DNA from: Bacteroidia bacterium
GTDB taxonomy: Bacteria; Bacteroidota; Bacteroidia; 2-12-FULL-35-15
Direction: 5' to 3'
DNA: 64,000 bases
Assembly: GCA_030654175.1 (NCBI GenBank)
Contig: JAURXZ010000042.1
Coordinates: forward strand, 124,001 to 188,000
Shown here piece by piece: positions 30,848 through 64,000 of the stretch. The notes under the pieces were generated by a model, which had not been told where the DNA came from, made no database searches, and saw only the letters and a list, made by a program, of their open reading frames with translations. The translations under genes and the position numbers were made by a program. The first letter of the stretch is position 1. Each line of letters begins with the position of its first letter.

Positions 30848-30923
30848 GCGAAAGTAGCTCAGTTGGTAGAGCGCGACCTTGCCAAGGTCGAGGTCGCGAG
30901 TTCGAACCTCGTCTTTCGCTCCA
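30848..30923 (+). tRNA. tRNA-Gly (GCC)
   Basis: The acceptor arm GCGAAAG pairs with CTTTCGC (30913-30919). The D arm is GCTCAGTTGGTAGAGC, the anticodon loop CTTGCCAAG gives GCC (glycine), and the T arm holds GAGTTCGAACCTC. The discriminator T and an encoded CCA (30921-30923) follow. Confidence 0.95.
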
Positions 30924-30930
30924 AAAAGTG

Positions 30931-30959
30931 ATCCCTCTTATTTGAGAGGGATTTTTTTT
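30931..30959 (+). terminator. Terminator between the tRNAs
   Basis: ATCCCTC (30931-30937) and GAGGGAT (30945-30951) form a stem that is followed by eight T. It lies just after tRNA-Gly. Confidence 0.75.
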
Positions 30960-30971
30960 GAATGCCGGAAT

Positions 30972-31056
30972 GCCCAGGTGGTGGAATTGGTAGACACGCA
31001 GGACTTAAAATCCTGTAATCATTGCGATTGTATCGGTTCAAGTCCGATCCCGGGTA
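30972..31056 (+). tRNA. tRNA-Leu (UAA)
   Basis: The acceptor arm GCCCAGG pairs with CCCGGGT (one A-C mismatch). The D region GGTGGAATTGGTAGACAC is leucine-like. The loop CTTAAAA carries the anticodon TAA, there is a long variable arm, and the T arm is ATCGGTTCAAGTCCGAT. No CCA is encoded (CTA follows). The 3' half is also read in reverse as the end of the serine recombinase gene. Confidence 0.93.
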
Positions 31057-32626
31057 CTAAACGGGACTTTTCAACAAAATTTTGAGAAGTCCCGTTTTCA
31101 TTTTCGCTCCAATCCTTTGATAATCCTGAGATTAGAGAGAATACACAATTAACTTCTGTGGTTCGATAATGCTCAATTTTTGCATCATAACCCAAACCGG
31201 CAGGAAACATAGTGTTTTGTAACATCTGTTTTTGGTAGAAGTCACCACAATCCCACATTTTAGTGAGGTTACAAGCCATTTTGCAGGTGTAATTTATGAG
31301 ATCTTTTGGGTTCGATAAATTTTGTTCCAATTTTGCCAACTCTTCGGAAATGGCTTTAATCTTCTTTTCCATTTCCTCGCCAAACTCGGTATAAACATCC
31401 AAACTTACCTGACCTAAAGCATGTCTTTTGCGAAGTACTTTGAACTCTTCCTCTGCTGAATGCAATTGCAAGGAAAGCCCCTTTTTATCGCTTGTGTTGC
31501 TTTCGGTCAGGTTTTCCCAAGTGTAGCCTAGTTGTGCCTTTAAAGGCTCTAAATAGGCAGGGTTTACCTCGTATTGGGACAATAGTTCCTGAAACTTAGA
31601 ATGCATAATCTTGACGCTTCTATTGACGTGTATGCCAATCTTGTTGACTTTATAGTAATAAAGCCCTTTCTTTCTTACAAGATAACCCGTAAATGGAACA
31701 CCTGTTTCAGCATCTTTTACAAATACCCGTAGTGGTAGATTGTCATTTACTTTGTTGCACTTGAAGCCTTCCGTTTTTTTAAGCTCATTAACCCTGAAAA
31801 ATAATTCCTCGCTGATAAGAGCGGGATGTTTTCCTTTGGCTAATTCGCCATTTAGAAGGTTGTGCGAAAGATACCCGCAGTAAAAAGGATTTCTAAAAGT
31901 GTCAGTCAAGGTTTGCTTTGGTAGTTTCATCCCATAGGCAGCTAACTTTTCTACGATTTGATCGTAGGTCATTCCATTAGCACGCCATTCAAATGCTTGC
32001 CGAACCAACTCTCCTTGTTCATTGATAATGATGGTTTGCTTTTCTGCTCCTTTTACATAACTGTAACCTTTTGGAGCTACACCAATCCATTCACCACGCA
32101 ATAATTTTTCACGCATCCCGTCAATGGTTTTTTGCCTTCGCAAATCATTGTCGTACTTGCTAAAAATAAACTGGATGTTTTGTTGTAAAGCTCCAGCGTG
32201 AGAATTGGTATCTATTGGCTGTGTAACCGCCATAATATTTACGCCAACCTTTTTTAACTCACTGGCAATATAAATGGCACTGTCTCCGGTTCTGCTAAAC
32301 CTATCCAAACTGTAAACAAGAATGTAAGTTATTTCTTCTTTACTCGCTTTTACAAATTTTAGCATTCGGTTGAACTCTTTACGCTCGTCACTTTTTGCAC
32401 TTTCATAAGTTCCACCAAAATAACCTTTGATGTTGAGTTTGTTTTTAATTGCGTACTCCTCGCAATATTTTTTTTGCCATTCAAGACTTTGGTTTGTGTC
32501 CATCTGCTCTTTTGAGCTTACACGAGTGTAGATGACACAATTTAGTACCTCAGTTATAGTGGTATCCGCTTGTTTGCCTTTTGCAAATTTATTAAGCAGC
32601 AAGGCGTTGTTGTTGTTCTGTTTCAT
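31019..32626 (-). CDS. Large serine recombinase (resolvase/recombinase family)
   Basis: The 535-residue protein has an N-terminal serine resolvase domain (about 30-170) with YTRVSSKEQ (likely nucleophile Ser37) and YSLDRFSRTGD. A recombinase DNA-binding domain follows (about 185-290, RGEWIGVAPKGYSYVKG). The zinc-ribbon stage has lost its Cys residues: FVKDAETGVPFTGY replaces the usual CPxCG form. A coiled coil runs near 375-425. The last dozen codons (VPGIGLEPIQSQ) are the reverse reading of tRNA-Leu. This suggests the element inserted at the tRNA 3' end and took its recombinase tail from it. Confidence 0.88.
   Translation of the reverse strand: MKQNNNNALLLNKFAKGKQADTTITEVLNCVIYTRVSSKEQMDTNQSLEWQKKYCEEYAIKNKLNIKGYFGGTYESAKSDERKEFNRMLKFVKASKEEITYILVYSLDRFSRTGDSAIYIASELKKVGVNIMAVTQPIDTNSHAGALQQNIQFIFSKYDNDLRRQKTIDGMREKLLRGEWIGVAPKGYSYVKGAEKQTIIINEQGELVRQAFEWRANGMTYDQIVEKLAAYGMKLPKQTLTDTFRNPFYCGYLSHNLLNGELAKGKHPALISEELFFRVNELKKTEGFKCNKVNDNLPLRVFVKDAETGVPFTGYLVRKKGLYYYKVNKIGIHVNRSVKIMHSKFQELLSQYEVNPAYLEPLKAQLGYTWENLTESNTSDKKGLSLQLHSAEEEFKVLRKRHALGQVSLDVYTEFGEEMEKKIKAISEELAKLEQNLSNPKDLINYTCKMACNLTKMWDCGDFYQKQMLQNTMFPAGLGYDAKIEHYRTTEVNCVFSLISGLSKDWSENENGTSQNFVEKSRLVPGIGLEPIQSQ
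31062..31098. terminator. Bidirectional hairpin after tRNA-Leu
   Basis: CGGGACTTTTCAA (31062-31074) pairs with TTGAGAAGTCCCG (31082-31094), followed by TTTTC on the plus strand. It can end the tRNA transcript; on the minus strand it lies inside the recombinase tail. Confidence 0.7.
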
Positions 32627-35992: not shown

Positions 35993-37072
35993 TTACATAT
36001 TATCTAATGGACTTCTAACATTTTGAACTTCTTTTTTACCAATCTGTGCATAAATCATGGTTGTTTTCATATCGCTATGGCCCAATAGTTTTTGAATAAA
36101 AGCCATATCCGTGCCATACTCTAACAAATGTGTGGCATAACTGTGCCTTAAACTGTGAATGCCAACGGGTTTGTTAATTTTAGCTAATCGCATTCCGTTT
36201 TTAAAAACAGCTTGTACACTCCGTATTGAGTATTGTCCGCCGTATTGCCCTTCAAACAAAAAATGTTTGGGTTGGTAGGTTTTGTAATAGCTACGAAGTA
36301 ATGTTAAAACCGATTCGGGTAAGTTAACATACCTATCGCTTTTACCTTTTGAGTTTTCGATAAGTACTTGCATGCGTTTACTATCAATATCGGATATTTT
36401 TAGATGCACGATTTCGCTTACCCGTAAACCCATTCCATAGCATAATTGAAGCATTAATTTATGTTTGCTGTTGCTTGTAACATCAAACAATTTTTGAATG
36501 TCCTTTGTGCTTAGTACTTTTGGCAATTTACTTTTTGATTTAGGGCGTGGGATTTCGATAAAAAATTTATCTTTTAAGAGTACTTGTTCAAAGTAAAATT
36601 TTAGTGCATTTAATCTACTATGCAAATGTGCTTCGGAAAGTTTGAGTTCATTTACACAATAGAGCATGTATGATTTTAACCGGTCGGGTGTTAGTGTGTC
36701 AACTGGATGATTTTTGAGCATGACTAAAAGTTGAGAAAACTCGCCTAAATAAACTTTTGCTGTATTAGTACTGTATGCTTTTAGTTTTAGTTGATTTTCC
36801 ATACTTTGCAAAGCGGGTTGATTGATAGGATGTATTTTGTGTAATATAGTTTCAGAAGGTTCTTTAAGAGCAAGCCCCACTTGTTTTCGTATTTCCTTAC
36901 TATCGGTAATATACCAACACTTATTTGTATTGCTCCAACGGCAAAAGGGATATTGCTTTTTAAGTGCAGCTAATACAATATCGTTTTTAGGGAATTTACA
37001 CCATATAACCTGTTTATCTTTGTGTTTACCAGTTAAAAAGTCAATTTCATTTTTTAAATCAACACTGCGCAT
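35993..37072 (-). CDS. Tyrosine recombinase, candidate integrase of the cassette array
   Basis: The 359-residue protein has a catalytic domain with Arg217 (GLRVSE), Lys243 or Lys245 (SKGKSDR), His306 and Arg309 (HSLRH), His332 (LGHSD) and nucleophile Tyr341 (TTMIYAQI), and it ends in VRSPLDNM. The Arg217-His306 spacing (89 residues) is like XerD (96) and lacks the extra segment of IntI1 (131). The core-binding domain is at about 91-175. An N-terminal extension (1-85) has FCRWSNTNKCWYI. It diverges from the array and is 150 bp from the first core site, as an integron integrase is. Confidence 0.9.
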   Translation of the reverse strand: MRSVDLKNEIDFLTGKHKDKQVIWCKFPKNDIVLAALKKQYPFCRWSNTNKCWYITDSKEIRKQVGLALKEPSETILHKIHPINQPALQSMENQLKLKAYSTNTAKVYLGEFSQLLVMLKNHPVDTLTPDRLKSYMLYCVNELKLSEAHLHSRLNALKFYFEQVLLKDKFFIEIPRPKSKSKLPKVLSTKDIQKLFDVTSNSKHKLMLQLCYGMGLRVSEIVHLKISDIDSKRMQVLIENSKGKSDRYVNLPESVLTLLRSYYKTYQPKHFLFEGQYGGQYSIRSVQAVFKNGMRLAKINKPVGIHSLRHSYATHLLEYGTDMAFIQKLLGHSDMKTTMIYAQIGKKEVQNVRSPLDNM

Positions 37073-37122: not shown

Positions 37123-37223
37123 ACGTATTTTATGTATTTATATTTTGTTTAGTTTGATAATCAATAGTTTGTGCAATTTTGCTTATTCGTGCTTTATTTT
37201 GTATTATTGCGTATAATATAGAG

Positions 37224-37559
37224 TTATGCCGCACCGTTGGACAACCAAGTAGAAACTTTACGGTTGACAAGAAAACTCAACTTATTTCAGTTTAAAACAA
37301 CAATTCGTGGCGACAATTACAATACAAAAAACTAAACGTGTTGACCTCACTAAACTCGGCTGACCTTGACGCAGAACTCACAAAACGTATCGACCTAAGC
37401 GCAGACACAAAAAATTGTGCTGACCTGTGTGTAAGTTTTGTGGCGACACATAACCAAGTTTAGAAAACTGCATTTGAAAATCGTTTAGTAAAATTACTTG
37501 TATTGTATGCGGACACGAATGCTGTGTTTAAACTAACCGCAGAAAAGAAAACGGCGGCA
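37224..37559. other. Cassette 1 body, no gene seen
   Basis: Before its attC the first, integrase-proximal cassette has no open frame longer than about 60 codons on either strand. The sequence is rich in TGAC/GACA words (TGACCTCACTAAACTCGGC near 37340). It may be an empty cassette, a decayed gene, a small RNA or a promoter cassette. Confidence 0.6.
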
Positions 37560-37733
37560 GCATAACAGCACCTAAAACTTATGCGGGCGACATCAAAGCA
37601 TTTGCAAATTTCAAGGTCGCTCCGCGAAAGTTGTTTTCATTTTGCAAATGCATAGAAACATAGTATCTTTATTTAAACGTTTCGGTAGACAGTGTTTCAA
37701 ATCCGCACAAGTTCTAGCTGCAAACCGTTATAT
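37560..37733 (+). repeat. attC-like site 1 (long type)
   Basis: It begins GCATAACAGCACC and ends AGCTGCAAACCGTTATAT. Outer arms pair (AAAACTTATGCGGG with CCGCACAAGTT). The inner part has TTTGCAAAT...ATTTGCAAA and the block TTTCGGTAGACAGTGTTTC at 37680-37698, which recurs in site 2. Confidence 0.8.
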
Positions 37734-37779
37734 GCAACCAGCCGACTGGAAAATCAAACTTTCACTTTAGACACAAAAC

Positions 37780-38769
37780 TTAATTTTTCATCACTTTTTT
37801 CGTGACAACTAACTGCTTATTTTTATAAAGCAATAATGTGTAGATACCTTTGTCGAAATAAGAAATATCAATTTCTTCTTTGAGGACTTCGCTAACTATT
37901 TCTTTGCCAAATAAATCTAATATCTTAAAAGTATATTCTCCGTGACTATATCTTTCATCACTAAATTTAATTAGACCTGTGGTTGGGTTCGGATATATTT
38001 CAAAGCTATTGCCATTATTGACATCTTTTATGCCTACAGTAGCTTGGTCTATTAAAGTAATATCGTCAATGAAATAATATGAATAATAAAGATTAGAACC
38101 AGGATAATTAGGGTCTGGGTTGTTTGTTCCTACAAATAAAGTATCAGTGTTAGCATTTTTATTAAAATTACCAATTGTCATATACTGTTCGCCACCAACA
38201 GCAGTGAAACATCCTTGTATTTGAGTCCACCCAATCGTATCTGTTATAAAACCAGTTTGATTCACTATTTGCGGGATTTTATTTACGTAGCCTATAGCAC
38301 CTGTTGTTTGCGGATTAACAGAAAAATAAGCTCCAATAGAATGTACTGCATATTGATTTCTATCGGCTCTCGAAACATAAAACGAAAGACAATATACCTT
38401 ACCCGCAACTAATGGCGAACTTAAATGCTGATATATATACTCTTTTAAATCTGACTGAACTTGAAATGGCGTTAAGCCAACGTAATTATTTCCGTCTTTA
38501 GCCTGACAATAACCAAATACATTTACTGGAGCACCAATATATGTGTTTGTACAAACACTTCTCAAAAAATCTGGGCTCTCTAGCGGCTGCCAATTATCTA
38601 ATATATGAACATATGGAGGAAGAGTATAATAATCTTCAAACCCCATAGCGTTACAATTCATATTTGAATAATTTTCAAAACTACCATTTGCAATTAGGTT
38701 TTGACTCCTACAATTAAAGACTGTAAGAGATATTATAATGGTATTTAATATTTGATTAAACTTAGCCAC
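37780..38769 (-). CDS. T9SS-sorted secreted protein (cassette 2)
   Basis: The 329-residue product has a signal-like start. The first 220 residues read as a lectin or MAM-like beta domain: LIANGSFENY, then LSSPLVAGKVYCLSFYVSRA and YSYYFIDDITLI near residue 230. A T9SS sorting domain (EIYPNPTTGLIKF) covers the last 75 residues. It belongs to a Bacteroidota surface family that often carries an OmpA or carbohydrate-binding part. It is the only gene of its cassette and runs opposite to the cassette direction, so it needs its own promoter. The start region lies 174 bp before attC site 2. Confidence 0.8.
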   Translation of the reverse strand: MAKFNQILNTIIISLTVFNCRSQNLIANGSFENYSNMNCNAMGFEDYYTLPPYVHILDNWQPLESPDFLRSVCTNTYIGAPVNVFGYCQAKDGNNYVGLTPFQVQSDLKEYIYQHLSSPLVAGKVYCLSFYVSRADRNQYAVHSIGAYFSVNPQTTGAIGYVNKIPQIVNQTGFITDTIGWTQIQGCFTAVGGEQYMTIGNFNKNANTDTLFVGTNNPDPNYPGSNLYYSYYFIDDITLIDQATVGIKDVNNGNSFEIYPNPTTGLIKFSDERYSHGEYTFKILDLFGKEIVSEVLKEEIDISYFDKGIYTLLLYKNKQLVVTKKVMKN

Positions 38770-38942
38770 AAATTACATTTAGCTTTTACTAAGATAGTAC
38801 AAAAACTAATACGTCCATTACTTCTCGTAAAAGCAATTTTTCAAATTGCAAAAGGTGGCTTTGGTTCCTGTTAGACATATGAGTTCGTATCTAGAAACAT
38901 TAAGTTGCCATTGATATTGTTCTCACTAAATGCGGCTGGCAT

Positions 38943-39123
38943 CATATAACACACGCTTTATTCAATTTGGGCGGAAGTATAAGGCATTTGCAAAAGTTGT
39001 CCCTTCGGGAAAGACAATTATTTATGCTTTGCAAATGGCTAAAAAACATTTAGCTTTGTTAGTAGCATTTCGGTAGACAGTGTTTCAAATCCCAAACTGA
39101 AATAAAGCGCGAAAACGTTAGCT
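38943..39123 (+). repeat. attC-like site 2 (long type)
   Basis: CATATAACACACGCTTTATT at the left pairs with AATAAAGCGCGAAAACGTTA at the right, and CAATTTGGG pairs with CCCAAACTG. It shares TTTCGGTAGACAGTGTTTC (39069-39087) and TTTGCAAA words with site 1. Confidence 0.85.
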
Positions 39124-39443
39124 GCAAGCGTAAAGACAGACCGTGCAACCCTGACAGTAACGGACGGACAGACAAGAGAAGCGTAAACCATTTTGACAGA
39201 TAAACAAAGACATACAGACCATATTACAAACGGACAAGAACTAAGCCGACACACCTTGCCGACCCTTCTGTATTTTTTCTTTTCCCCACCGCACATTTTT
39301 TTATTCAATTTTTTGCCACCGCACAATGGCACATTGGCTTTTGCCCCGACACACAAAAGCCCACGCTTCGGCAAAATCCAAAGAGCCATTTTTCCCAACG
39401 CTTTTTTAACTTTGCATTTATAAACATCTATAAAGAGAACACT
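39118..39443 (+). repeat. Left arm of cassette 3 (long inverted terminal arm)
   Basis: This 326-bp non-coding leader starts TTAGCTGCAAGCG and contains GTAAACCATT, TATTTTTTCTTTT (39271-39283) and a 19-base AT block at 39296-39314. All of these return as reverse complements in the right arm of the same cassette. A hairpin TTTTGCC...GGCAAAA follows (39332-39376), with CCGACACACAA in its loop. Confidence 0.75.
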
Positions 39444-39779
39444 ATGCTATCAACAGAGAAAACATTATCAGAAGTAATAGAAATACTAAGACAACGTGGT
39501 TATACAGAAGACTTTAACTTGTTGGAAGAAAACATATCTTACAAAAAAGGAGGCGAAAAAGTTGATTTGAACGACATCGTTATTGACAAAATATATCGTT
39601 TTACAGGACAAAACGACTTGGAAGACGAAGCTATTTTATACGCAATGACAAATCAGAAAGACGGAGCTAAAGGCGTATTTGTCAATGGGTATGGAACTTA
39701 CACAGACTCAGGAGCAAACGCTGTTATCAGTAAAATAACTGTTAATGAAAATGATAATGACGATTGGACAATCAAATAA
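39444..39779 (+). CDS. Small conserved Bacteroidota protein (cassette 3)
   Basis: The 111-residue protein starts MLSTEKTLSEVIEILRQRGY and has a beta-rich second half (VDLNDIVIDKIYRFTGQNDL, EAILYAMTN). Similar proteins are often labelled phosphoribosylpyrophosphate synthetase in databases. I see no PRPP-synthetase motif here, so that name should not be used. It is the first gene of a four-gene cassette and probably shares its transcript. Function unknown. Confidence 0.65.
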   Translation: MLSTEKTLSEVIEILRQRGYTEDFNLLEENISYKKGGEKVDLNDIVIDKIYRFTGQNDLEDEAILYAMTNQKDGAKGVFVNGYGTYTDSGANAVISKITVNENDNDDWTIK

Positions 39780-39801
39780 TGAATTATACTAACTTTGCAC
39801 C

Positions 39802-40110
39802 GTGAAATATTTCTCCTTCATATTAGCCCTTTATGTTTTGTTGCTGACAGCAGCACCAAATTTGGTGGAGGACAAATGTTTTCAGGAGCAAACAACCGAA
39901 CAATCACAAGACAATAAAAATGACAAAGATTGCAGCGATTGTTGTTCACCATTTATGAGTTGCAATACCTGTTTAGGTTTTACTTTCCCAATAGCAAATT
40001 TTTCAATACACTCTATCCTCACTTATTCAGACAAAAAAGTTTCTATTTACAAGGAAAATACAACGTCTGACTTTTTCTCTTCCATTTGGCAACCGCCCAA
40101 GATTAGTTAA
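39802..40110 (+). CDS. Cys-rich small exported protein (cassette 3)
   Basis: The 102-residue product starts with a signal peptide (MKYFSFILALYVLLLTAAP). It has a cluster of Cys residues at about 46-64 (CSDCCSPFMSCNTC) that could bind a metal. Small proteins of this kind precede TonB-dependent metal receptors in Bacteroidota. With the receptor and the CDF exporter downstream it may take part in metal sensing or buffering (inference). Confidence 0.6.
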   Translation: MKYFSFILALYVLLLTAAPNLVEDKCFQEQTTEQSQDNKNDKDCSDCCSPFMSCNTCLGFTFPIANFSIHSILTYSDKKVSIYKENTTSDFFSSIWQPPKIS

Positions 40111-40140
40111 TGTTTCCGTGCCTTTGGCACAATAACAAAT

Positions 40141-40165
40141 TGCGGTGCTACGCACCGCCAATTCT
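40141..40165 (+). terminator. Hairpin between Cys-rich gene and receptor gene
   Basis: GCGGTGC (40142-40148) pairs with GCACCGC (40152-40158) around a TAC loop, followed by AATTCTTATTTTTC. It could be a weak terminator or attenuator 40 bp before the receptor gene. Confidence 0.5.
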
Positions 40166-40196
40166 TATTTTTCAAACATTAATAATCATTTGAGCG

Positions 40197-42365
40197 ATGA
40201 AGTTTAAAATCATTTTGCTACTAATGGTAGCATTCAACATACATACAGTTTTCGGACAGAATACATTTAAAGCGGTCATAAAAGACAGCGAAACAAAAGA
40301 ACCGTTAATCGGTGCGACAGCTATTTTATCGGGAACAACAGGAGCAACCGCAGACATTGACGGGTTAATAACTTTAATCAACATTCCGAACGGAAAGCAA
40401 ATAATTGAATTTCGTTATATCGGTTATGAAATACGAAAAGACACGTTTGAATTTCCTTTAGCTACATCAGACCCGATTGAAATTTTTCTGCAATCAGAAA
40501 CAGACGAGTTAGACGAGATTGTGATTTCATCTACCCGAAGTTCCAGAACCATAAAGGACATTCCGACAAGAATTGAATTTATTGCAGGGGAAGAATTAGA
40601 GGAAAAAGCGAATATGAAAGCAGGTGATATTCGTATGCTTTTGAGCGAAAGCACAGGCATACAAACGCAACAAACTTCCGCAACATCTGCCAATGCTTCC
40701 ATTCGTATTCAGGGGCTTGACGGACGATATACACAAATTCTTAAAGACGGATTTCCGCTATATGCAGGAGCAGCAAGCGGACTTGGACTTTTGCAAACGC
40801 CACCGCTTGACTTAAAGCAAGTAGAAATTATTAAAGGTTCTTCATCTACACTTTACGGAGGCGGAGCAATAGCAGGATTGGTAAACCTTATTTCCAAAAC
40901 ACCGACAGATGAAAAAGAATTAGGTTTTCATTTAAACGGAAGTTCGGGCAGAGGTTTTGACATTAACGGTTTTTACGGACAGCGATTTAACAAAATCGGG
41001 ACAACTATTTTTGCCGCACATAACCGCAATTGGGCTTATACCCCATCGGGTGATTTTTCAGCTATTCCAAAATTTGACAGGTATGTTTTCAATCCCAAGT
41101 TGTTTGTTTATTTCAGCGATAAAACAAAACTGAATGTTGGAATAAACACAGCTATTGAAAACCGTATCGGTGGCGACATACATTTTATACAAGGAAAAGG
41201 CGACACTATCCACAGTTATTTTGAAGAAAACAAAACACAACGCTATTCCACGCAATTATCTTTTGACCATAAGTTTAACGACAAAAGTTTTTTCAATTTT
41301 AAAAACAGCGTGAGTTACTTTAACAGGATAATCAATATTCCGAATTATAGCTTTGAGGGCAAACAAACAGCATCTTTCAGCGAAGCAAGTTATACTCACA
41401 TAAAAGAAAAAACTGAATGGGTTGCAGGTGCAAATCTTTGGTCGGATAATTTTCAGGAAAAGCAGTTAGATACTTTTCCGTTGAGAAATTACAACCAAAT
41501 TACTTTTGGTGCATTTGCTCAAAATTCGTGGAAAGCAACCAAATGGCTCAATCTTGAAACAGGTTTCAGAGCCGACTATGTTATTGATTATGGTATTGCT
41601 TTGCTGCCAAGAGTTTCAGCATTATTCAAAATAACAGACAAATTTTCTTCACGGCTTGGCGGTGGCTTTGGCTATAAAACACCAACCATATTTACAGAGG
41701 AAAGCGAACGCATACAATACCAAAATGTAATGCCCATTGATAAAAACATCAACAAATTGGAACGCAGTTACGGAGGAAATGTTGATTTTAATTACAGAAC
41801 GGTTTTGGGCGAAAAAGTAACGTTCAGTATCAACCAACTTTTCTTTTACACCTATTTGAATAACCCTTTGTTGCTTGAATATCAAACGGGCGGATTATAC
41901 CAATTTATCAATTCGTCAGGACACATTGATACAAGAGGAACGGAAACCAATATCAAAATCGGCTATGATGATTTTAAATTGTTTTTGGGTTATACATTTA
42001 CCAATACCCGCTTGCATCAAAACGGAATTTTGACAAACACACCGCTTACGCCAAAGCACAGGATAAATTCAGTTTTAATGTATGAAGTAGAGGACAAATG
42101 GAAAGTAGGTTTGGAAGCGTATTATTTCAGTCCTCAAAAATTGAGTGACGGAGCAACAGGAAAACAATATGTGCTTTGTGGTTTTATGGTTGAAAAGCTA
42201 TGGGAGAAATTTTCGGTTTACATCAACTTTGAAAATTTCCTTGACGCAAGGCAAACCCGATTTGACACTATTTATACAGGCACAGTAACTAATCCTGTTT
42301 TCAGGGACATTTATGCACCGCTTGACGGTTTTTTAATTAATGGTGGTATCAAACTAAAATTGTAG
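40197..42365 (+). CDS. TonB-dependent outer membrane receptor (cassette 3)
   Basis: The 722-residue protein has a signal peptide (ending VFGQ) and a carboxypeptidase-regulatory-like beta domain (about 23-95, DSETKEPLIGATAIL). The plug follows (about 110-225, ISSTRSSRTIKDIPTRIEFI, then LQTPPLDLKQVEIIKG), and then a 22-strand-type barrel to the end. It takes up a metal chelate or another ligand using TonB energy. Because it sits with a Cys-rich protein and a CDF exporter, a metal ligand is likely. The CDF gene follows 5 bp after its stop. Confidence 0.9.
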   Translation: MKFKIILLLMVAFNIHTVFGQNTFKAVIKDSETKEPLIGATAILSGTTGATADIDGLITLINIPNGKQIIEFRYIGYEIRKDTFEFPLATSDPIEIFLQSETDELDEIVISSTRSSRTIKDIPTRIEFIAGEELEEKANMKAGDIRMLLSESTGIQTQQTSATSANASIRIQGLDGRYTQILKDGFPLYAGAASGLGLLQTPPLDLKQVEIIKGSSSTLYGGGAIAGLVNLISKTPTDEKELGFHLNGSSGRGFDINGFYGQRFNKIGTTIFAAHNRNWAYTPSGDFSAIPKFDRYVFNPKLFVYFSDKTKLNVGINTAIENRIGGDIHFIQGKGDTIHSYFEENKTQRYSTQLSFDHKFNDKSFFNFKNSVSYFNRIINIPNYSFEGKQTASFSEASYTHIKEKTEWVAGANLWSDNFQEKQLDTFPLRNYNQITFGAFAQNSWKATKWLNLETGFRADYVIDYGIALLPRVSALFKITDKFSSRLGGGFGYKTPTIFTEESERIQYQNVMPIDKNINKLERSYGGNVDFNYRTVLGEKVTFSINQLFFYTYLNNPLLLEYQTGGLYQFINSSGHIDTRGTETNIKIGYDDFKLFLGYTFTNTRLHQNGILTNTPLTPKHRINSVLMYEVEDKWKVGLEAYYFSPQKLSDGATGKQYVLCGFMVEKLWEKFSVYINFENFLDARQTRFDTIYTGTVTNPVFRDIYAPLDGFLINGGIKLKL

Positions 42366-42370
42366 CAATT

Positions 42371-43165
42371 ATGCAAAAGACAATATTTATCATCACAAAA
42401 ATGGATTGCCCAAGCGAGGAGCAACTAATACGGATGAAACTACAAAAGTTTGATGAAATAAAATTTTTGGAATTTGACATTCCAAACCGAAAATTAGCAG
42501 TTCATCATAACGGAAAAACAGAGCCGATACACTTGGCTTTAAATACGCTAAACCTTGATACTTCTTTGGTTTCAACGGAAGAAAGCAAAGTAGAAATTGA
42601 AACGGACACAAGCAATAAACAACGGAAATTGTTGTGGACGGTTCTTGTTATCAATTTTCTGTTTTTCGGATTGGAAATGCTGTTTGGGATTTTTTCCAAC
42701 TCAATGGGATTGGTGGCAGACAGTTTAGATATGCTCGCAGACAGTATTGTTTACGGATTGGCATTATTTGCGGTAGGTGGAACAATAACGAGAAAAAACA
42801 ATATCGCAAAATTTGCAGGATATTTTCAAATACTTCTTGCTGTAATCGGTTTTGTAGAAGTAGTCAGACGATTTATAGGAGTTGAGAAAATGCCTGATTT
42901 TCAAACAATGATTATCGTTTCTGTTTTGGCTCTTATCGCTAATGTGATTTGTCTTTACTTATTACAAAAAGGTAAAAGCAAAGAGGCTCATATGCAAGCA
43001 AGTATGATTTTCACTTCCAATGACGTAATTATTAATTCGGGTGTTATCGTTGCAGGACTTTTGGTTAATTGGCTTAATTCAGGTTATCCCGACCTGATTA
43101 TTGGAGCAATCGTTTTTATAATTGTTGCAAGAGGAGCATACAGAATATTACAATTAGCGAAGTAA
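42371..43165 (+). CDS. Cation diffusion facilitator with N-terminal HMA-like domain (cassette 3)
   Basis: The 264-residue protein begins with an HMA-like ferredoxin-fold domain (about 1-70) that has only MDCPSEE and no CXXC. From residue 85 it has about six helices of a CDF exporter. The metal-site pattern SMGLVADSLDMLADS has Asp residues where CzcD-type proteins have D/H, and the second site is SMIFTSNDVIINSG near residue 215. CDF proteins export Zn, Co, Fe or Mn in exchange for protons. The short 5-bp gap suggests coupling to the receptor. Confidence 0.85.
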   Translation: MQKTIFIITKMDCPSEEQLIRMKLQKFDEIKFLEFDIPNRKLAVHHNGKTEPIHLALNTLNLDTSLVSTEESKVEIETDTSNKQRKLLWTVLVINFLFFGLEMLFGIFSNSMGLVADSLDMLADSIVYGLALFAVGGTITRKNNIAKFAGYFQILLAVIGFVEVVRRFIGVEKMPDFQTMIIVSVLALIANVICLYLLQKGKSKEAHMQASMIFTSNDVIINSGVIVAGLLVNWLNSGYPDLIIGAIVFIIVARGAYRILQLAK

Positions 43166-43377
43166 AAAGCCAACGCACACAAGCACACACATTTTGCAGC
43201 CGCTACAAGCCGACACACAAGCCAAAGCTGCAAAAAGAGTGTGCTTGTTTCCCTAAAAAAAATTGAATAAAAAAATTTTCCTGCCCTTCTGAAAAAGAAA
43301 AAATACCCGAACGCACAACCCGACACTTGGACGACATACAGACAATGGTTTACTAAAACGGTGGACAGAACGCCAGC
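43166..43377 (+). repeat. Right arm of cassette 3
   Basis: The 19-base AT block at 43257-43275 is the exact reverse complement of 39296-39314, and AAAAGAAAAAATA (43293-43305) that of 39271-39283. AATGGTTTAC (43353-43362) mirrors GTAAACCATT. A TTTTGC...GCAAAA hairpin with CCGACACACAA in its loop lies at 43191-43234. Confidence 0.8.
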
Positions 43378-43509
43378 AGCTAACAACGGTTTGGCGTAAT
43401 GGGGGCGGACGTTCTCCGTATGAAAATTTGTGCTAAATTTGAACTGTGTGCTTCGTATGAAGTGTAGTGCTGAAAAGACCCCACTACGCCAAGCCGGATT
43501 CCGTTATGG
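43378..43509 (+). repeat. attC-like site 3
   Basis: It begins AGCTAACAACGGTTTGGCG and ends GCCGGATTCCGTTATGG. TTTGGCGTAATGGGG pairs with CCCCACTACGCCAAG. The inner hairpin has GTGCTTCGTATGAA and TAGTGCTGAAA words shared with sites 5 and 9. Confidence 0.9.
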
Positions 43510-43531
43510 CAAATGCTAAAAGACCGACATA

Positions 43532-46120
43532 GTGAAGCAAGGAAAAGTTAAGACAATAGAATTTTTAATTAACAGGGTTCAGACAAGACACCCTGAATTT
43601 GACAGTATTCCAAAGTTTTCATTATTGTTAGGTGCAGGCTGTTCAAAAAGCTCAGGTATTCCGACAGGATGGGAAATTATTAATACTTTAAAAAAGCTAT
43701 GGTTCCTAGACAACTTCCCAAAAGGAAATATTCATAAAATTGGTAATTACGAGTATAACGAAGATTTCTTTAAAGAAAATGCCGACATATTTGAACAAAA
43801 GACAATTGAACAAGAACTACAGCTAAAGGAATACATTCTAGAAAACAAAGACAAGTTTCTAAAGACAATACCTCAAATATTACGAGTTGGCAAGACAGAC
43901 GACCAAGTATTTCAAGAAAACATTGACAACATTTTTAATGACCATTTGTATGGGTTTTGGTTCAATCAGTTTTCTGAAAGCCCACGAGACAGACAAAAAT
44001 TTATTGAATATTTAATTGACAAATCAGAACCCAAAGGAGCCTACTTATTGCTTACTCATTTAATTGCAAGCGAAGTAAATCTGTTCTCAAACATCTTTAC
44101 AACTAATTTTGATGACTTAATAAACGACTCTCTTGTTAGGTATAGCAACAAAAAGCCAAGGGTTTATGCTCACAATGAGATTGCGAAATACATCAATGCT
44201 TACAGTACAAGACCAAATATTATAAAACTTCACGGAGACTTCTTGTTTGAAAACATAAAAAACACCACTGACGAAACAAGTAGCCTTTGGGAAAATATGG
44301 AAGTTAAGCTCGGTGAAGCTTTAAATACACTTGACATTGTAATAGTTGGATATAGTGGTGGAGATGTTTCCATAATGCAAGCCCTGACCGCATTGAAAAG
44401 GAAACATAATTTTTGCGTCTTTTGGTGCAGCAGAAACTATGAAAAGCTTAATTGGCGAGCCAAAGCATTTTTAGAAGAATTTGATAATTCTTATTTCGTT
44501 GAAATTGATTCTTTTGAATACTTAACCTACAAAATGTACGAAAGTGTAAAAGATTCGATAAAACCAATTGATATAGTAGAGACATCTAAAACAAAACAAC
44601 AAGAATTTGAAAAGTATATAGAGCAATACAGTGAAGAACTGATAACAAGTACAGAATTAAATGAAGCTGAAAAAGAATCAATAAAAGAATCTTTGGAGAT
44701 TATTTTAGAGAGAAATAGCTTTTTTCAATTTAATGAAATCAAAGATTATGAAGAAAAAAAGGAGTTCCTAGGAAAGTTACGAATTGACGGAATTTCGAGA
44801 GTACTCAAAAACATCTATTCAAATATTAGTTGGGAAGAAGCCAAGTTCCTTTATGGCGAAATTGACAAGGATAATTTTTTCATTACTAAAATTGAAAAAG
44901 CCCCAATTCAACATATTTCAAATGCACTTACCAATTTGAATACAGTTGACAGCATCAGGACAAAAGCAATTTTGGAAAGCATTCCAGACGAGTTGCTTTT
45001 AGCAAAACTTGAAAAATCAAGTGATGGAGACGCTTATTCTGCACTTGGAGAATTGGCTTCAATATCACCCGAAAAAATTGATTCTATTAAAAGAAGTCGG
45101 AAGGTTGAGTATAAATCTGAAGATTTTGAAAAGCTTGATTTAAGAGCTATTATCATAAAAATAAAAACAGGTTCAAAAGAATCAGCTATCAGTACAGTTC
45201 GCAACGAAGAGACTATAATTATTGACAAGTTATCAAAAGAATCTATAAAGGAAATTGCGATTTTCTTGAGTAATCTGAGTGAGCTTTCAGACAAACTTTC
45301 GAAGCAACTTTTTCTAAAGTTGAATGATGATTCATTAAAGCTACGGATTGAAAAAGAGAATTTCAATCAAATTGGCATTGCGATAAACTTGTTTACCAAA
45401 CTTGACAAGAACAAAACATTTAAAATTTGCGAAGAACTTGATTTTAACCAAATCGCCAAAAAGACCGAAAAACTGAATCTTGCAGCAATACAAAACGGAC
45501 TTAGAGAAATAAATGGATCAAATAATTTTCTTGCGTTTCAACTATTCAATCGTTTGACAAATGACTTTTTAAAATTGAAATTTGAACAAGCCGATTTTCA
45601 ATCAGTTGGTGAAGCTGCAAGTAACTTGATAAAAATAAACAGACAGAAAACAATTGAGCTTATAAGGCTCATCCCAGACGAGTTCTTTAAAACACTAATA
45701 AGCGATTCGGATTACACTTACCAACAATTTGCAACGACAATTGAAAAATTAACGCAAATAGATTTTGGTCGTTTCGCTAACATAACAAGGGACTCAGACA
45801 CGGAAAAGATAGCTTCAAAAATATTGGCATCAATCAACAAGACAGGACAACAAATATTTATTCATCACTTCCCGACATTAGCGAATATTGATTGGAAAAT
45901 TACAAATAAGATAATTTCAGAATTAAGTACTGAATATTTGTATAATCTTTTAAGATGGGAGAAACTTGACTTGTACACTGTCAATTTGCCATCTTTAAAA
46001 TTAGCTCTTGACCATTGTAAGAAGACCGAAGAATCAAAATTTATTGAAGGAATTATAAATAAAAACAAGTACAGGTTTGACAAGTACAGAAAACAAAACT
46101 ACAAGAAGCACTTGCCATAA
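43532..46120 (+). CDS. SIR2-domain protein with long helical-repeat C terminus (cassette 4)
   Basis: The 862-residue protein starts at a GTG 28 bp inside its cassette. Residues about 5-345 form a SIR2-like NAD-binding domain: LLLGAGCSKSSGIPTG (34-46), FTTNFDDLIND near 190, IIKLHGDFL near 230 and IVIVGYSGGD near 272. The remaining about 510 residues are helical with repeating units (KLDKNKTFKICEELDFNQ-type) and could sense an invader. Bacterial SIR2 proteins with large C-terminal parts often act in anti-phage defence by removing NAD+. The single gene fills its cassette; its stop codon lies in the core site (46118-46120). Confidence 0.85.
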   Translation: MKQGKVKTIEFLINRVQTRHPEFDSIPKFSLLLGAGCSKSSGIPTGWEIINTLKKLWFLDNFPKGNIHKIGNYEYNEDFFKENADIFEQKTIEQELQLKEYILENKDKFLKTIPQILRVGKTDDQVFQENIDNIFNDHLYGFWFNQFSESPRDRQKFIEYLIDKSEPKGAYLLLTHLIASEVNLFSNIFTTNFDDLINDSLVRYSNKKPRVYAHNEIAKYINAYSTRPNIIKLHGDFLFENIKNTTDETSSLWENMEVKLGEALNTLDIVIVGYSGGDVSIMQALTALKRKHNFCVFWCSRNYEKLNWRAKAFLEEFDNSYFVEIDSFEYLTYKMYESVKDSIKPIDIVETSKTKQQEFEKYIEQYSEELITSTELNEAEKESIKESLEIILERNSFFQFNEIKDYEEKKEFLGKLRIDGISRVLKNIYSNISWEEAKFLYGEIDKDNFFITKIEKAPIQHISNALTNLNTVDSIRTKAILESIPDELLLAKLEKSSDGDAYSALGELASISPEKIDSIKRSRKVEYKSEDFEKLDLRAIIIKIKTGSKESAISTVRNEETIIIDKLSKESIKEIAIFLSNLSELSDKLSKQLFLKLNDDSLKLRIEKENFNQIGIAINLFTKLDKNKTFKICEELDFNQIAKKTEKLNLAAIQNGLREINGSNNFLAFQLFNRLTNDFLKLKFEQADFQSVGEAASNLIKINRQKTIELIRLIPDEFFKTLISDSDYTYQQFATTIEKLTQIDFGRFANITRDSDTEKIASKILASINKTGQQIFIHHFPTLANIDWKITNKIISELSTEYLYNLLRWEKLDLYTVNLPSLKLALDHCKKTEESKFIEGIINKNKYRFDKYRKQNYKKHLP

Positions 46121-46246
46121 CAGGCGTTTGGCTCAATGGCGGGTGAAGTGGTTAATTGAACATTCTACCTCGCATCAACTTTTGTGGTGTATTGACAGTT
46201 TTGTGCTCCGAAATCCGCCACTGCGCCAAGCGCCAAACCGTTAGCA
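46114..46246 (+). repeat. attC-like site 4
   Basis: It begins GCCATAACAGGCGTTTGGC and ends GCGCCAAACCGTTAGCAG. GCTCAATGGCGG pairs with CCGCCACTGCGC. The inner 120 bases are nearly the same as site 7 (five differences). Confidence 0.92.
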
Positions 46247-46280
46247 GCCATTTTAGGACGACCACGCATAGACAGACTCT

Positions 46281-46667
46281 CTAATGAAATATTTTATCGC
46301 TGTGTTTCTTAATATGACCTTCACCCCAACCAAATAATGTTTCCAATACTGGGCGGACAGACTGACCATATTTCGACAATGAATATTCAACCTGTGGCGG
46401 TATTGCTTCGACAACTGTTCGGACAACAATATTGTGATGTTCCAATTCTTGCAAAGAGCTAATCATCATCTTTTCGCTTATCTCTGGTATTGACCTCTTC
46501 AATTCTGAATAGCGTTTTTTACTTTTAAATAACTCTGCAACAATTAACAATTTCCATTTGCCACCTAACACTTCCATTGAACAACGAATACCACAATAAT
46601 CTAATGGACGACCATTGACTGTTTCAATATTTCTTGGATAAAGTGTTTTGAATTGTTTTTTCTTCAT
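46281..46667 (-). CDS. HxlR-family winged-helix regulator (cassette 5)
   Basis: The 128-residue protein matches the HxlR (DUF24) family: the MEVLGGKWKLLIVAELF helix, RYSELKRSIPEISEKMM and the wing RTVVEAIPPQVEYSLS. Two Cys residues near the start (Cys25, Cys29) could be a redox or electrophile switch, as in YodB/HypR. It is divergent from the neighbouring NAD(P)-binding gene, and the shared gap has a palindrome at 46676-46689. It is the classic arrangement of a regulator with its target. Confidence 0.9.
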   Translation of the reverse strand: MKKKQFKTLYPRNIETVNGRPLDYCGIRCSMEVLGGKWKLLIVAELFKSKKRYSELKRSIPEISEKMMISSLQELEHHNIVVRTVVEAIPPQVEYSLSKYGQSVRPVLETLFGWGEGHIKKHSDKIFH

Positions 46668-46675
46668 ACCTACTT

Positions 46676-46689
46676 ACTAAAATGTTAGT
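46676..46689. promoter_or_regulatory. Candidate HxlR operator
   Basis: ACTAA-AATG-TTAGT is a palindrome in the gap between the divergent HxlR and NAD(P)-binding genes. A -7-like TACTTTTG (46722-46729) for the right-hand gene follows 33 bp later. Confidence 0.5.
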
Positions 46690-46750
46690 GCCTTACTTTT
46701 TATCAGTTTGACAAATGTAACTACTTTTGACAAACAAAATTTTACAAAAA

Positions 46751-47608: not shown

Positions 47609-47630
47609 CACCGAAAGAAGAAAAACGGCT

Positions 47631-47761
47631 GCTAACAGCGGTTTGGCGTAATGGCGGGTGACGTGCTTCGTAGAAACATTTTTGCTATATTTGAAGTGTG
47701 TGCTTCGTATGAACATTTGTGGTTAAAATCCGCCACTACGCCAAGCCGCAAACCGTTAGCG
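47631..47761 (+). repeat. attC-like site 5
   Basis: It begins GCTAACAGCGGTTTGGCGTA and ends CCAAGCCGCAAACCGTTAGC. TTTGGCGTAATGGCGG pairs with CCGCCACTACGCCAAG. Inner words GTGCTTCG and GTGCTTCGTATGAA link it to sites 3 and 9. Confidence 0.92.
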
Positions 47762-47959
47762 GCAATGGTAGGACGACCCCGCAACCCCAACCGACCGACC
47801 TCTGACAGACACACGACCCGACAACTGCCGACACAGAAAAAATTAAAAAAAGCCCACCGCACGGAAAATTTTTAGCCAACGCCATTGGCACATTTTGTTT
47901 TGCCCCAACACACAAACCCACCCTTCGGCAAAACAAAAAGAGCCAATCCCAACGCTTTG
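47756..47959 (+). repeat. Left arm of cassette 6
   Basis: It starts TTAGCGGCAATGGTAGGACG. GAAAAAATTAAAAAAAG (47836-47852) and GGAAAATTTTT (47863-47873) reappear as reverse complements in the right arm (51623-51640 and just before). A TTTTGCCCC...GGCAAAAC hairpin with CAACACACAAA lies at 47900-47936. Confidence 0.72.
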
Positions 47960-48349
47960 TTAAACCCCGACAGCTTCCGCAATCTTCTGCCCTTTTCCAA
48001 TGATTCTTTTTCGGTGTTGTAAACCCCATTCAACCATTACGTCCAACACGTCTTTAAACGATTCGCCCGATTTGGTCAATTCATATTCAACGGTAACAGG
48101 AATGGAATCATACACCGTTCGTGTTACAATTCCGTTTACTTCCAAATCTTTTAACTCTTTGGAAAGCATACGGGGCGTGATTTTAGGAATTTCCCGTTCC
48201 ATTTCTTTGAAACGCTTTTTGCCGTAAAGTAATGAACCAATAATCGGCAACTTCCATTTACCGCTAATGACATTCATCGTATCATTTACGGCTAACACAA
48301 AAGTTCCCGAACACTTTTTTACCTGTTCTAATTGTGATATTCTGCTCAT
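47960..48349 (-). CDS. HxlR-family regulator, QorR/YodB-like (cassette 6)
   Basis: The 129-residue protein is an HxlR/DUF24 regulator: MNVISGKWKLPIIGSLLYGK, RFKEMEREIPKITPRML, and the wing RTVYDSIPVTVEYELT. A single conserved N-terminal Cys13 (KKCSGTF) is where YodB and QorR sense quinones or electrophiles. It is divergent from a five-gene set that starts with a QorB-like gene, and a near-perfect palindrome lies between them. The match with QorR-qorB is family knowledge; the target here is inferred. Confidence 0.9.
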   Translation of the reverse strand: MSRISQLEQVKKCSGTFVLAVNDTMNVISGKWKLPIIGSLLYGKKRFKEMEREIPKITPRMLSKELKDLEVNGIVTRTVYDSIPVTVEYELTKSGESFKDVLDVMVEWGLQHRKRIIGKGQKIAEAVGV

Positions 48350-48371
48350 TTAATCTCTGTTTTTATGGTTG

Positions 48372-48405: not shown

Positions 48406-48432
48406 TAGTAACAAATGTATAGCAAAGGTAGG

Positions 48433-51487: not shown

Positions 51488-51712
51488 TAAAAACACATAA
51501 ACAAAGACAGCTACTACACAGGGACAAGCACTTATGCAAGTCCCGCAAAAGCCAACCCACAGACCAAAACTTGCAAAAGAGCTTGCCCCTTTTAAACCCG
51601 ATTAAAAAATTTCCCTTCCCTTCTTTTTTTAATTTTTTTCCCCGACCCGCAAGCCGACACAGACAACCATAACCTGACAACGGCTGACCACGAACTACAA
51701 AGAACCACATGC
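51488..51712 (+). repeat. Right arm of cassette 6
   Basis: CTTTTTTTAATTTTTTTC (51623-51640) is the reverse complement of the left-arm block at 47836-47852 with one base extra, and AAAAAATTTCC just before pairs with GGAAAATTTTT. A hairpin region with TTGCAAAAGAGCTTGC lies at 51570-51590. The end CATGCCGC matches the cassette start in reverse. Confidence 0.72.
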
Positions 51713-51845
51713 CGCTAACAAGGACTTGCCGCAATGCGGGGTGAAGTGCTAAATTGAACAGTAGTGCTTTTTATTTACATTTGTGCTAAGGCGAAAGTTT
51801 GTGCTTCTAATCCCCGCACTGACGCCAAGCCCCGAAACGTTATCG
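51713..51845 (+). repeat. attC-like site 6
   Basis: It begins CGCTAACAAGGACTTGCCG and ends GCCCCGAAACGTTATCG. CTTGCCGCAATGCGGGG pairs imperfectly with CCCCGCACTGACGCCAAG. The words AGTGCTAAATTGAAC and TTGTGCTAAG are shared with sites 3 and 9. Confidence 0.88.
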
Positions 51846-51939
51846 TTCAGCATAATAAGAAAGGATTCATAGAAATCAATTTTGTAGGCATAATTGATTT
51901 GAAAGCAAATTTTAAGTATCCATACATTAATAATACAAT

Positions 51940-54428: not shown

Positions 54429-54456
54429 AATCAGACGACCGAAAAGAATGCCGAAC

Positions 54457-54588
54457 CGATAACAGGCGTTTGGCTCAATGGCGGGTGACATGGTTAATTG
54501 AACATTCTACCTCACATCAACTTTTGTGGTGTATTGGCAGTTTTGTGCTCCGAAATCCGCCACTGCGCCAAGCGCCAAAACGTTATAG
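54457..54588 (+). repeat. attC-like site 7
   Basis: It begins CGATAACAGGCGTTTGGC and ends GCGCCAAAACGTTATAG. The inner 120 bases are the same as site 4 except for about five positions, although the outer core bases differ. This fits sites that share a body but close different cassettes. Confidence 0.92.
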
Positions 54589-54646
54589 CCAATGGTTGCC
54601 GATGAAAATGACGAAAAATAATAAATAACAAAAAATAGAATTAAAT

Positions 54647-55762: not shown

Positions 55763-55773
55763 AATACCACTGG

Positions 55774-55906
55774 CTATAACAGCGCAGTTAAGCAATTGCT
55801 GGTTTTTCGGTAGCCGGAAGTTGTGGTTTCACGAAGAAATAGTATCTTCGGCAGAGAGAACTCAGTTCGCTTTTACGCAACTGCGTAACTGCGCGAAACG
55901 TTATAG
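55774..55906 (+). repeat. attC-like site 8
   Basis: It begins CTATAACAGCGCAGTTAAGC and ends TGCGCGAAACGTTATAG. GCGCAGTTAAGCAATTGC pairs with GCAACTGCGTAACTGCGC. It contains ATAGTATCTTCGGCAG and TTTTTCGGTAGCC, the second recalling the TTTCGGTAG of sites 1 and 2. Confidence 0.88.
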
Positions 55907-56209
55907 CCAATGGTAGGACGACCGTTCCAAAGACGATAGACCGACCAAAATTTAAACATTAAAACAAAAACAAACCATTTTGACAGGTGACCAAAAACAT
56001 ACAGACCATATTGAAACGGGACAGCGAGTAATCCGACACTCAAGCCGCCCCAATGTTTTTTTATTTTTTTTTGCCGCCCCGCATTTTTTAAAAACAATTT
56101 TAGGCAGCCGCACAAGCGGCACATTTGGTTTTGCCCCGACACACAAACCGACCCTTCGCAAAACCAAAAGAGCCACTTTTTTGCCATCGCACGACATAAA
56201 CATTAGCAT
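55901..56209 (+). repeat. Left arm of cassette 9
   Basis: It starts TTATAGCCAATGGTAGGACG. AAACCATTTTGACAGGTG, a TTTTTTTATTTTTTTTT run and TTTTTTAAAAACAATTTT (56084-56101) reappear as reverse complements in the right arm. A TTTTGCCCC...GCAAAACC hairpin with CGACACACAAA lies at 56129-56165. Confidence 0.75.
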
Positions 56210-62996: not shown

Positions 62997-62998
62997 GG

Positions 62999-63132
62999 CT
63001 ATAACAGCACCTACAAGCAAGCAGGGGTTTCGTGCTTCGTATGACAGGAAAGTGCTAAATTTAAAGTTCAGTTCTTCGTATGAAGTTTAGTGCTAAAAAT
63101 CCCTGCCTGCGTGTAGCTGCAAACCGTTATAG
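62999..63132 (+). repeat. attC-like site 9
   Basis: It begins CTATAACAGCACCTACAAGC and ends GTAGCTGCAAACCGTTATAG. CAAGCAGGGGTTT pairs imperfectly with AAATCCCTGCCTGCG. The words CGTGCTTCGTATGA and GTTCTTCGTATGAAG are shared with sites 3 and 5. Confidence 0.9.
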
Positions 63133-63163
63133 GGCATTTTAGGACAACGACAACAAAATTGAA

Positions 63164-63709
63164 ATGGAAGGCAGAGACGATATCATTCCCAATTACAAAG
63201 ACATCAATGATTTTCTTAGTTCTATTCCTTCAAATTACAAGACAAAAAACCCAAATTTCTTTTGCCTAAGACTAAAAGAGAACGAAGGCTCAATCAGCAA
63301 TTACAAACCGCCCTTTCGTAAAGACTTTTATTTCATTGCCTTAGTTTCAAATGCGGGCAAAACAAAAATAACTTATGACAACACGAATGTTACCAAACTT
63401 AATTCTTTCCTTGTCTTTCAATCACCCGGACTGCTTTATAGTTTTTACAGAGACAATTCGGCAAACGGTTATTTGATTTATTTCAAAAAAGAATGTTTTT
63501 CATTTTTTAAACCCGACTTTGAAAAGGAGTTTCCATTCTTCAATATTCTGCATACCAATTTTTTTAAGCTGAATGAAGCGAAGTTTCAGGAGTTTGCTCC
63601 CCATTTTGAAGAAGTATTTTCCGCATACGAAAACACGAATGACAATCAACATAAAGTTGCTTCAATAAAACTTCTTGCTTTGTTGTATTGTAAGCTCCCC
63701 AAAAATTAG
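63164..63709 (+). pseudogene. AraC-type regulator, broken by an IS3 element (cassette 10)
   Basis: The ATG at 63164 starts MEGRDDIIPNYKDINDFLSS. Residues 20-140 form an AraC-type cupin domain of the Bacteroidota type (FFCLRLKENEG, FIALVSNAGK, SFLVFQSPGLLYSF, GYLIYFKKECFSF). The frame ends LLALLYCKLPKN, and the last five or six codons belong to the insertion sequence that starts near 63689. The DNA-binding domain is therefore cut off. Its rest should lie beyond the window, after the other end of the element. Confidence 0.75.
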
Positions 63710-64000
63710 GACTATTTGTTAGTAGAAAAAAAACTAATAAATTAACCTAATCAAAAATGAAGAAAAAAAGATTCAGCCCAGAACAAATTGCCGCAATTCT
63801 TAAAGAGTTTGATAACGGCAAATCAGTAATTGAAATAGTAAGAGATCATGGCGTTAGTAAAGCGGCGTTTTACAAGTGGCGCGAGCGTTATGGCGGAATG
63901 AACTCTGATGAGCTAAAGAAAATGAAGTCTCTTGAAGAGGAAAACCGTCGCTTAAAGCATATGTACGCTGAATTAGCTTTGGATTTAAAATTAGCAAAAG
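63689..64000 (+). mobile_element. IS3-family insertion sequence, left part
   Basis: The presumed left end TGTAAGCTCCCCAAAAATT begins at 63689 inside the AraC-type frame. The OrfA gene starts at 63757 and runs to the window edge. The right end and target duplication are outside the window. Confidence 0.75.
63757..64000 (+). CDS. IS3-family transposase OrfA (3' end outside window)
   Basis: An 81-codon frame starts MKKKRFSPEQIAAILKEFDN and has the helix-turn-helix VIEIVRDHGVSKAAFYKWRE (about residues 23-42) and a leucine-zipper-like end (EEENRRLKHMYAELALDLKL). This is typical of the OrfA of IS3/IS911-type elements, which binds the IS ends; the catalytic OrfB would follow after a -1 frameshift. 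The gene is cut by the window end. Confidence 0.92.
   Translation, partial: MKKKRFSPEQIAAILKEFDNGKSVIEIVRDHGVSKAAFYKWRERYGGMNSDELKKMKSLEEENRRLKHMYAELALDLKLAK

Follow-up and report, generated by a model that had tools for sequence, protein, structure and literature searches.

Organisation of the locus

The window, by which is meant the whole 64,000-nucleotide stretch of DNA that was analysed, contains the gene of a tyrosine recombinase and, divergent from it on the plus strand, nine complete cassettes of 0.5 to 7.2 kb, which together span positions 37224-63126 (Table 1). The cassettes end in nine attC-like sites of 124-172 nt, which stand in tandem on one strand and each of which folds as a long imperfect hairpin. 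Of a tenth cassette only the start is seen, and there are no more sites in the 40 kb of contig beyond this start. An IS3-type element at 63713-64000 appears to split the AraC-like gene of the tenth cassette.

Table 1. Coordinates of the integrase gene, the attI-like junction and the cassettes of the array. A slash marks the position of the junction.
Feature	Position	Strand	Remarks
Tyrosine recombinase (integrase), array-associated Bacteroidota family without I2	35993..37072	minus	359 aa; catalytic R217, K242, H306, R309, H332, Y341; N-terminal domain, residues 6-65
attI-like junction ...TTGCGTATAATATAGA/GTTATGCC	37190..37235	plus	Junction at 37223, which precedes the integrase start by 151 nt
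attC-like site 1	37559..37735	plus	Closes cassette 1, 37224-37727
attC-like site 2	38943..39125	plus	Cassette 2, 37728-39117
attC-like site 3	43377..43511	plus	Cassette 3, 39118-43503; TonB-dependent receptor, cation efflux
attC-like site 4	46114..46248	plus	Cassette 4, 43504-46240; SIR2-like protein
attC-like site 5	47629..47763	plus	Cassette 5, 46241-47755; HxlR regulator, NmrA-like protein
attC-like site 6	51712..51847	plus	Cassette 6, 47756-51839; HxlR, NmrA, DoxX, LigB, DsbA
attC-like site 7	54456..54590	plus	Cassette 7, 51840-54582; two GNATs, metallo-beta-lactamase fold, SnoaL
attC-like site 8	55773..55908	plus	Cassette 8, 54583-55900; serine beta-lactamase-fold protein
attC-like site 9	62998..63134	plus	Cassette 9, 55901-63126; copper/heavy-metal module (AraC regulator, heavy-metal P-type ATPase, DUF3347, multicopper oxidase)
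Tenth cassette, start only	63127..63725	plus	Apparently broken by IS3-type element

The attI-like junction was located by a rule, according to which the first cassette's site points to the junction through its left box. In the window it is GTTATGCCGC at the junction that matches the left box of the first site. The flank to the left resembles that of L049 (TTGCGTCTATTTTAGA/GTTACAAG), the closest named relative, which has the same layout as the window, with an attI junction adjoining its integrase. In those relatives where integrase and cassettes are co-oriented, the attI lies 37-303 nt past the integrase stop, and 6-7 of 7 positions agree in 15 of 17 loci. There are, accordingly, two platform layouts within one family: most relatives (L042, L043, L052, L077 and others) are co-oriented with attI past the stop codon, and the divergent layout is that of the window, L049, L050 and L087.

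At 30848-32626, a tRNA-Gly and a tRNA-Leu are followed by a large serine recombinase (31019-32626, minus strand), the reading frame of which overlaps the 3' end of the tRNA-Leu. From this overlap it is likely that a separate integration has occurred at the tRNA, so that the integron proposed below may sit on a genomic island.

The integrase lacks the segment specific to IntI

According to the original prediction, the recombinase has R217, H306, R309, H332 and Y341, and the translated reading frame contains all five at the positions claimed, with K242 in addition. The same five residues are invariant across an alignment of 8 relatives. The C-terminus reads ...NVRSPLDNM, as had been noted, and the IntI1 end to which it was likened, ...GVRSPLDALPPLTSER, had been given correctly. 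Pfam matches are to Phage_integrase and to Phage_int_SAM_4, the latter starting at residue 88, and an AlphaFold model (pLDDT 88) can be aligned with XerA, IntI and XerH from about residue 82. As a phage integrase the protein had to be rejected, with only 3 phage records, all distant, at E <= 1e-30. The host genome has a single copy of the integrase and 3 other related proteins, which are more distant and 2 of which group with Xer. XerC- and XerD-like proteins are encoded in this genome; IntI is absent from it by a search across the genome.

The Arg-His distance was correctly given as 89, against 131 in IntI. Almost all relatives have 89-90, the phylum's own Xer proteins have 90-96, and plasmid IntI1 and nearly all of about 30 IntI proteins compared have 131. 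The top match among solved structures is the V. cholerae IntI (2a3v), with an alignment in two pieces where query residues 90-282 correspond to IntI 8-202 and query residues 287-358 to IntI 248-319. IntI residues 203-247, which make up the IntI-specific segment of about 45 residues, are in this alignment without counterpart in the window integrase. An additional segment near patch III (I2) has been described as defining the IntI integron integrases (PMC9668308), and by this definition, as well as by its Arg-His distance, the protein is not an IntI. Nor does it pass the curated cut-off of TIGR02249, where it scores 190.8 bits against the 265 needed, in two stretches.

In the tree, IntI (100/100), chromosomal Xer (100/99) and the array-linked family (97/95) are separate groups. 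The IntI clade thus leaves the family of the window integrase outside, identity with XerC or XerD also fails, and the phylogeny called for in the original prediction places the integrase apart from both families. That prediction would have been refuted had the protein fallen among phage or transposon integrases from genomes without arrays. It does not, although related recombinases that have no such sites form a proteobacterial subclade nested next to the array-linked family. Members of this proteobacterial clade (L092-L120, from Sphingobium, Mesorhizobium, Devosia and others) are closely related simple recombinases with no such sites nearby. In an earlier classification of integron-like simple tyrosine recombinases (Smyshlyaev 2021, PMC8138268) the insertion is called essential for integron function, whereas the family described here is linked to arrays without it. 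IntI proper occurs within the phylum, where 105 of 395 sampled genomes are over the cut-off, only 1 of them from the class of the window.

The N-terminal extension of 85 residues, also predicted, is real, since both Pfam and the AlphaFold model place the start of the core-binding domain at about residue 82-88. Its domain has the order alpha-beta-beta-alpha-beta-beta-alpha with a conserved Trp and is present in 1-3 copies in nearly all array-linked relatives, L087 being without it. When the domain was modelled alone (pLDDT 75), comparison with the PDB gave no convincing match, and its similarity to Pfam DUF5710 is weak only and below the cut-off (E 0.0068 to 0.4). The absence of a structural match is not proof of a new fold.

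Architecture of the sites

The attC of an integron is complete only when its cassette is circular, and for this reason its left box pairs with the start of that same cassette. In the window, 57 of 63 positions are paired when the left boxes of the sites are compared with the starts of their own cassettes, where 31 are expected (p about 1e-5). Across many arrays, 44 consecutive sites, of which 8 belong to the window, show the same: on average 6.7 of 9 positions pair with the own start and 3.4 of 9 with the next start (z = 16), and the own start is the better partner in 38 cases and the worse in 1. Over the R'' boxes of all arrays, the pairing between start and left box reaches about 14 nt. An A-versus-G difference that recurs near position 11 would, in the circular site, make another A.C mismatch, outside the core.

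A covariance model was built from seven window sites, and weak hits elsewhere are therefore biased towards the sites of the window. The 74 sites used for covariation come from 28 other loci and plasmids; 92% of their cells are paired, and double changes are found in 20 of 23 pairs. The palindrome has 430 cells with double changes against 138 when shuffled, and every slid register gives a far lower number. These counts rest on an alignment fitted to the covariance model. Low sequence conservation combined with strong pairing suggests that a folded strand is what is recognised, an inference drawn from the conservation of structure.

The central spacer, which was measured without the model alignment, is asymmetric in 62 of 62 sites, with the right side 2-5 nt longer than the left. 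The commonest lengths are 1 nt left and 5 nt right, and most sites have 1-3 nt left and 5-7 nt right. In the 31 sites of one register, position 14 is always A (31/31), and the nucleotide opposite is C in 27. Canonical attC sites, with roughly symmetric central spacers between the R and L boxes, are excluded as a description by this asymmetry. The comparison is small, being made with the estX attC of one class 1 integron (spacers of 9 and 8 nt), and few canonical attC were detected in IntI loci by the hairpin detector, so that the contrast in geometry rests on little data. A search of Rfam gave no match at the sites.

Association of the sites with the integrase family

With the family profile, 80 named loci were collected, 42 from Bacteroidota and 38 from elsewhere. 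Sites are present at 20 of the 42 Bacteroidota integrase loci and at none of the 38 others (p = 1.5e-7); the 22 Bacteroidota loci without a site in the available DNA are often on short contigs. Downstream of the integrase and on its strand lie 46 of 49 sites, and two are divergent as in the window. Sites are, at the same time, dispersed in most Bacteroidota genomes at a density of about 1.5 per Mb, and in many of the genomes that have sites no family integrase was detected. As far as can be judged from sequence, such sites fit lone or orphan cassettes but weaken a simple one-to-one link. Outside the array, the genome of the window has further attC-like sites that stand singly or in pairs (contigs C6, C16, C19, C21, C27, C31 and C44 of G000), which are probably lone cassettes elsewhere in the genome.

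Exchange of cassettes and resistance genes

To see how a cassette may appear in two arrays, consider cassette 9. A homologue of this 7.2-kb cassette is the first cassette in L087, from a Saprospirales MAG, where it adjoins a different integrase, and the homology starts exactly at C/GTTA (window position 55899) and runs through the closing site. For cassette 8, comparison of its DNA with 395 genomes gave homologues of up to 75%, one of which (L174) has two clear sites; the other eight homologous loci, available with short flanks only, have zero or one weak site match. Between the window and plasmids, what is shared is limited to genes of 76% identity, with the cassette boundary not included.

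Another case is the start of the tet(X) cassette. Over 30 nt it is identical in four plasmids, namely p80-1-2-tetX3 of Acinetobacter, two plasmids of Empedobacter brevis and pWB8 of Sphingobacterium faecium, which have four different left neighbours, and the identity breaks exactly at /GTT. The left neighbour is attI-like in the Acinetobacter plasmid, and in the other plasmids it is one of three different site arms. On the two Empedobacter plasmids, one and the same cassette comes after the tet(X3)-type and the tet(X2)-type site, and on pWB8 the next cassette is a different one. The Acinetobacter gene upstream of tet(X3), which goes under the names xerD and tnpF, encodes a truncated integrase of the present family, with 48% identity over residues 124-357; only half of the tet(X3) site remains ahead of res. 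The arrangement xerD-tet(X3)-res-ISCR2 has been described as an ISCR2-mobilised unit and not as the remnant of an integron (PMC8635130).

Sites also follow blaOXA-347, floR and lnu(H). On the plasmid loci L130 (8010-10180), L132 (7223-10676), L183, L184, L185 and L186, genes that end in sites are tet(X2), tet(X3), lnu(H), blaOXA-347 and floR, and mef(C)/mph(G) and erm(F) are between or beside sites. The hosts of such resistance plasmids are Empedobacter, Riemerella, Sphingobacterium and, in truncated form, Acinetobacter.

Discussion

An integron in the functional sense is here taken to have an integrase with its catalytic residues, an attI beside the integrase gene that bounds the first cassette, structured attC-like sites that pair with the starts of their own cassettes, and cassettes that move individually between arrays; catalysis of attI x attC recombination through a folded single strand, and a platform promoter Pc for expression of the cassettes, would also belong to it. 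In the sequences, the 35993-37072 recombinase has the residues, the attI is indicated by its signature, the pairing is found as expected, and the natural exchanges are those of individual cassettes. The system would thus be integron-like in its workings, with catalysis inferred, and yet it fails the tests for membership of IntI. The array, the attI, the G/TT junctions, the covariation, the linkage to an enzyme family and the past exchange of whole cassettes at the junctions all support that the locus belongs, very probably, to an IntI-independent class of integrons, a second kind that is widespread in Bacteroidota, where recombination by the enzyme remains an inference. The proposal that this recombinase is a cassette integrase in spite of the missing IntI segment draws its support from the linkage and orientation of the sites, the attI, the pairing, the tree and the exchanges.

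It could be objected that cassettes are moved by the host XerC/XerD or some other recombinase in trans, and that the neighbouring integrase is a passenger. The genome does encode XerC- and XerD-like proteins, a serine recombinase is nearby, and many genomes have sites and no family integrase. We nevertheless find this unlikely: 15 of 17 loci have attachment junctions adjoining the integrase gene, the sites follow the integrase in strand and side, and the family has kept its catalytic residues. The genome, moreover, has no IntI, which also disfavours the suggestion in the original prediction that another integrase acts in trans.

The order of the genes, which is that of integrons, and the closeness of the VchIntIA structure could also be read as signs of a degenerate true IntI, which has lost I2 and is dead, with the array as a relic. 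Such a history is very improbable when IntI forms a clade of its own (100/100), when the I2-less form is common to a whole family with invariant catalytic residues, and when the geometry of the sites is distinct; the tet(X) junctions, moreover, are identical on present-day plasmids, which shows recent activity somewhere in the family. Still harder to credit is that the palindromes are REP- or MITE-like interspersed repeats, unrelated to site-specific recombination. Their dispersal over most Bacteroidota genomes would agree with it, but pairing with the own start across cassettes of up to 7.2 kb is not expected for dispersed repeats, and neither are attI junctions and clean G/TT exchanges of gene cassettes.

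For an IntI-independent integron the following scheme can be proposed. The 35993-37072 recombinase, which is Xer/IntI-like but without I2 and with a small N-terminal domain of its own, would capture circular cassettes at the attI (37223), and the same enzyme would excise and shuffle them. The single imperfect palindrome at the 3' end of each cassette would be read as a folded single strand, and the choice of strand may be set by the asymmetric spacer and the fixed A.C mismatch. Where the I2 helix reads extrahelical bases, the N-terminal domain perhaps reads spacer and mismatch instead. Strand exchange by the window integrase is in this scheme only inferred, and that one folded strand is the substrate is taken over by analogy from the IntI systems. 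A more far-reaching idea, to which we give somewhat less than even credence, is that folded-site cassette capture arose a second time, in an IntI-independent clade of tyrosine recombinases, and that the resulting system, which uses a separate site code (asymmetric spacer, A.C mismatch and N-terminal reader domain), spread through Bacteroidota and was the source of mobile tet(X) and other resistance genes.

With the IntI integrons (class 1 IntI1, V. cholerae VchIntIA) the system shares a tyrosine recombinase adjoining an attI, tandem cassettes ended by palindromes, the G/TT junction, a left box that pairs with the start of its own cassette, and a single strand orientation. It differs from them in an integrase with the shorter Arg-His distance (89, not 131), an extra N-terminal domain and a clade of its own, and in sites with an asymmetric spacer and a fixed A.C mismatch; further, the integrase gene of most relatives points the same way as the cassettes, which are often large and multigene with genes in both orientations. 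The integrase-less sites among relatives are like CALIN elements, i.e., attC clusters without integrase, in contrast to the many arrays here where an integrase is present. In the Acinetobacter unit (PMC8635130), "xerD" is a truncated member of the family, and tet(X3) comes after an attI-like junction.

A supporting observation was reported in 2026 for Riemerella anatipestifer, where aph(3')-IVb was inserted independently of homology with a 27 bp 5' flank and a 140 bp 3' flank, which folds like attC; the enzyme was unidentified, and lnu(H) and blaRATA were cited as similar (PMC13148043). The short 5' flank, the attC-like 3' flank and the Bacteroidota host are as in the present system, and lnu(H) is site-ended here too, but the study neither generalises nor mentions an integrase, an attI or an array. 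Apart from those of Chlorobi and Ignavibacteriae, IntegronFinder 2.0 reported a single complete integron for Bacteroidetes proper, that of Salinibacter ruber (PMC9024848). In the literature searched, no description of Bacteroidota integrons without IntI was found; preprints and many journals were outside this search, and priority is uncertain.

A large system of gene capture may, then, have gone unnoticed, since searches that need an IntI profile or the specific segment would miss it. With the additional segment being a described hallmark of integron integrases, an array-linked family without I2 provides a natural contrast for how folded attC is recognised. The machinery seems to have moved resistance genes such as tet(X), and because tet(X2), tet(X3), blaOXA-347, lnu(H) and floR end in sites or are flanked by them on Bacteroidota plasmids, it bears on the mobilisation of tigecycline resistance and on its surveillance.

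One further feature of the array is a non-coding segment of about 220 nt, which recurs with 76% likeness at 39185-39401 and 55972-56190, near the starts of different cassettes. It is also found at 47887-47916 and in another genome (L087, 9528-9772), and is possibly a cassette-borne promoter region or some other mobile signal.
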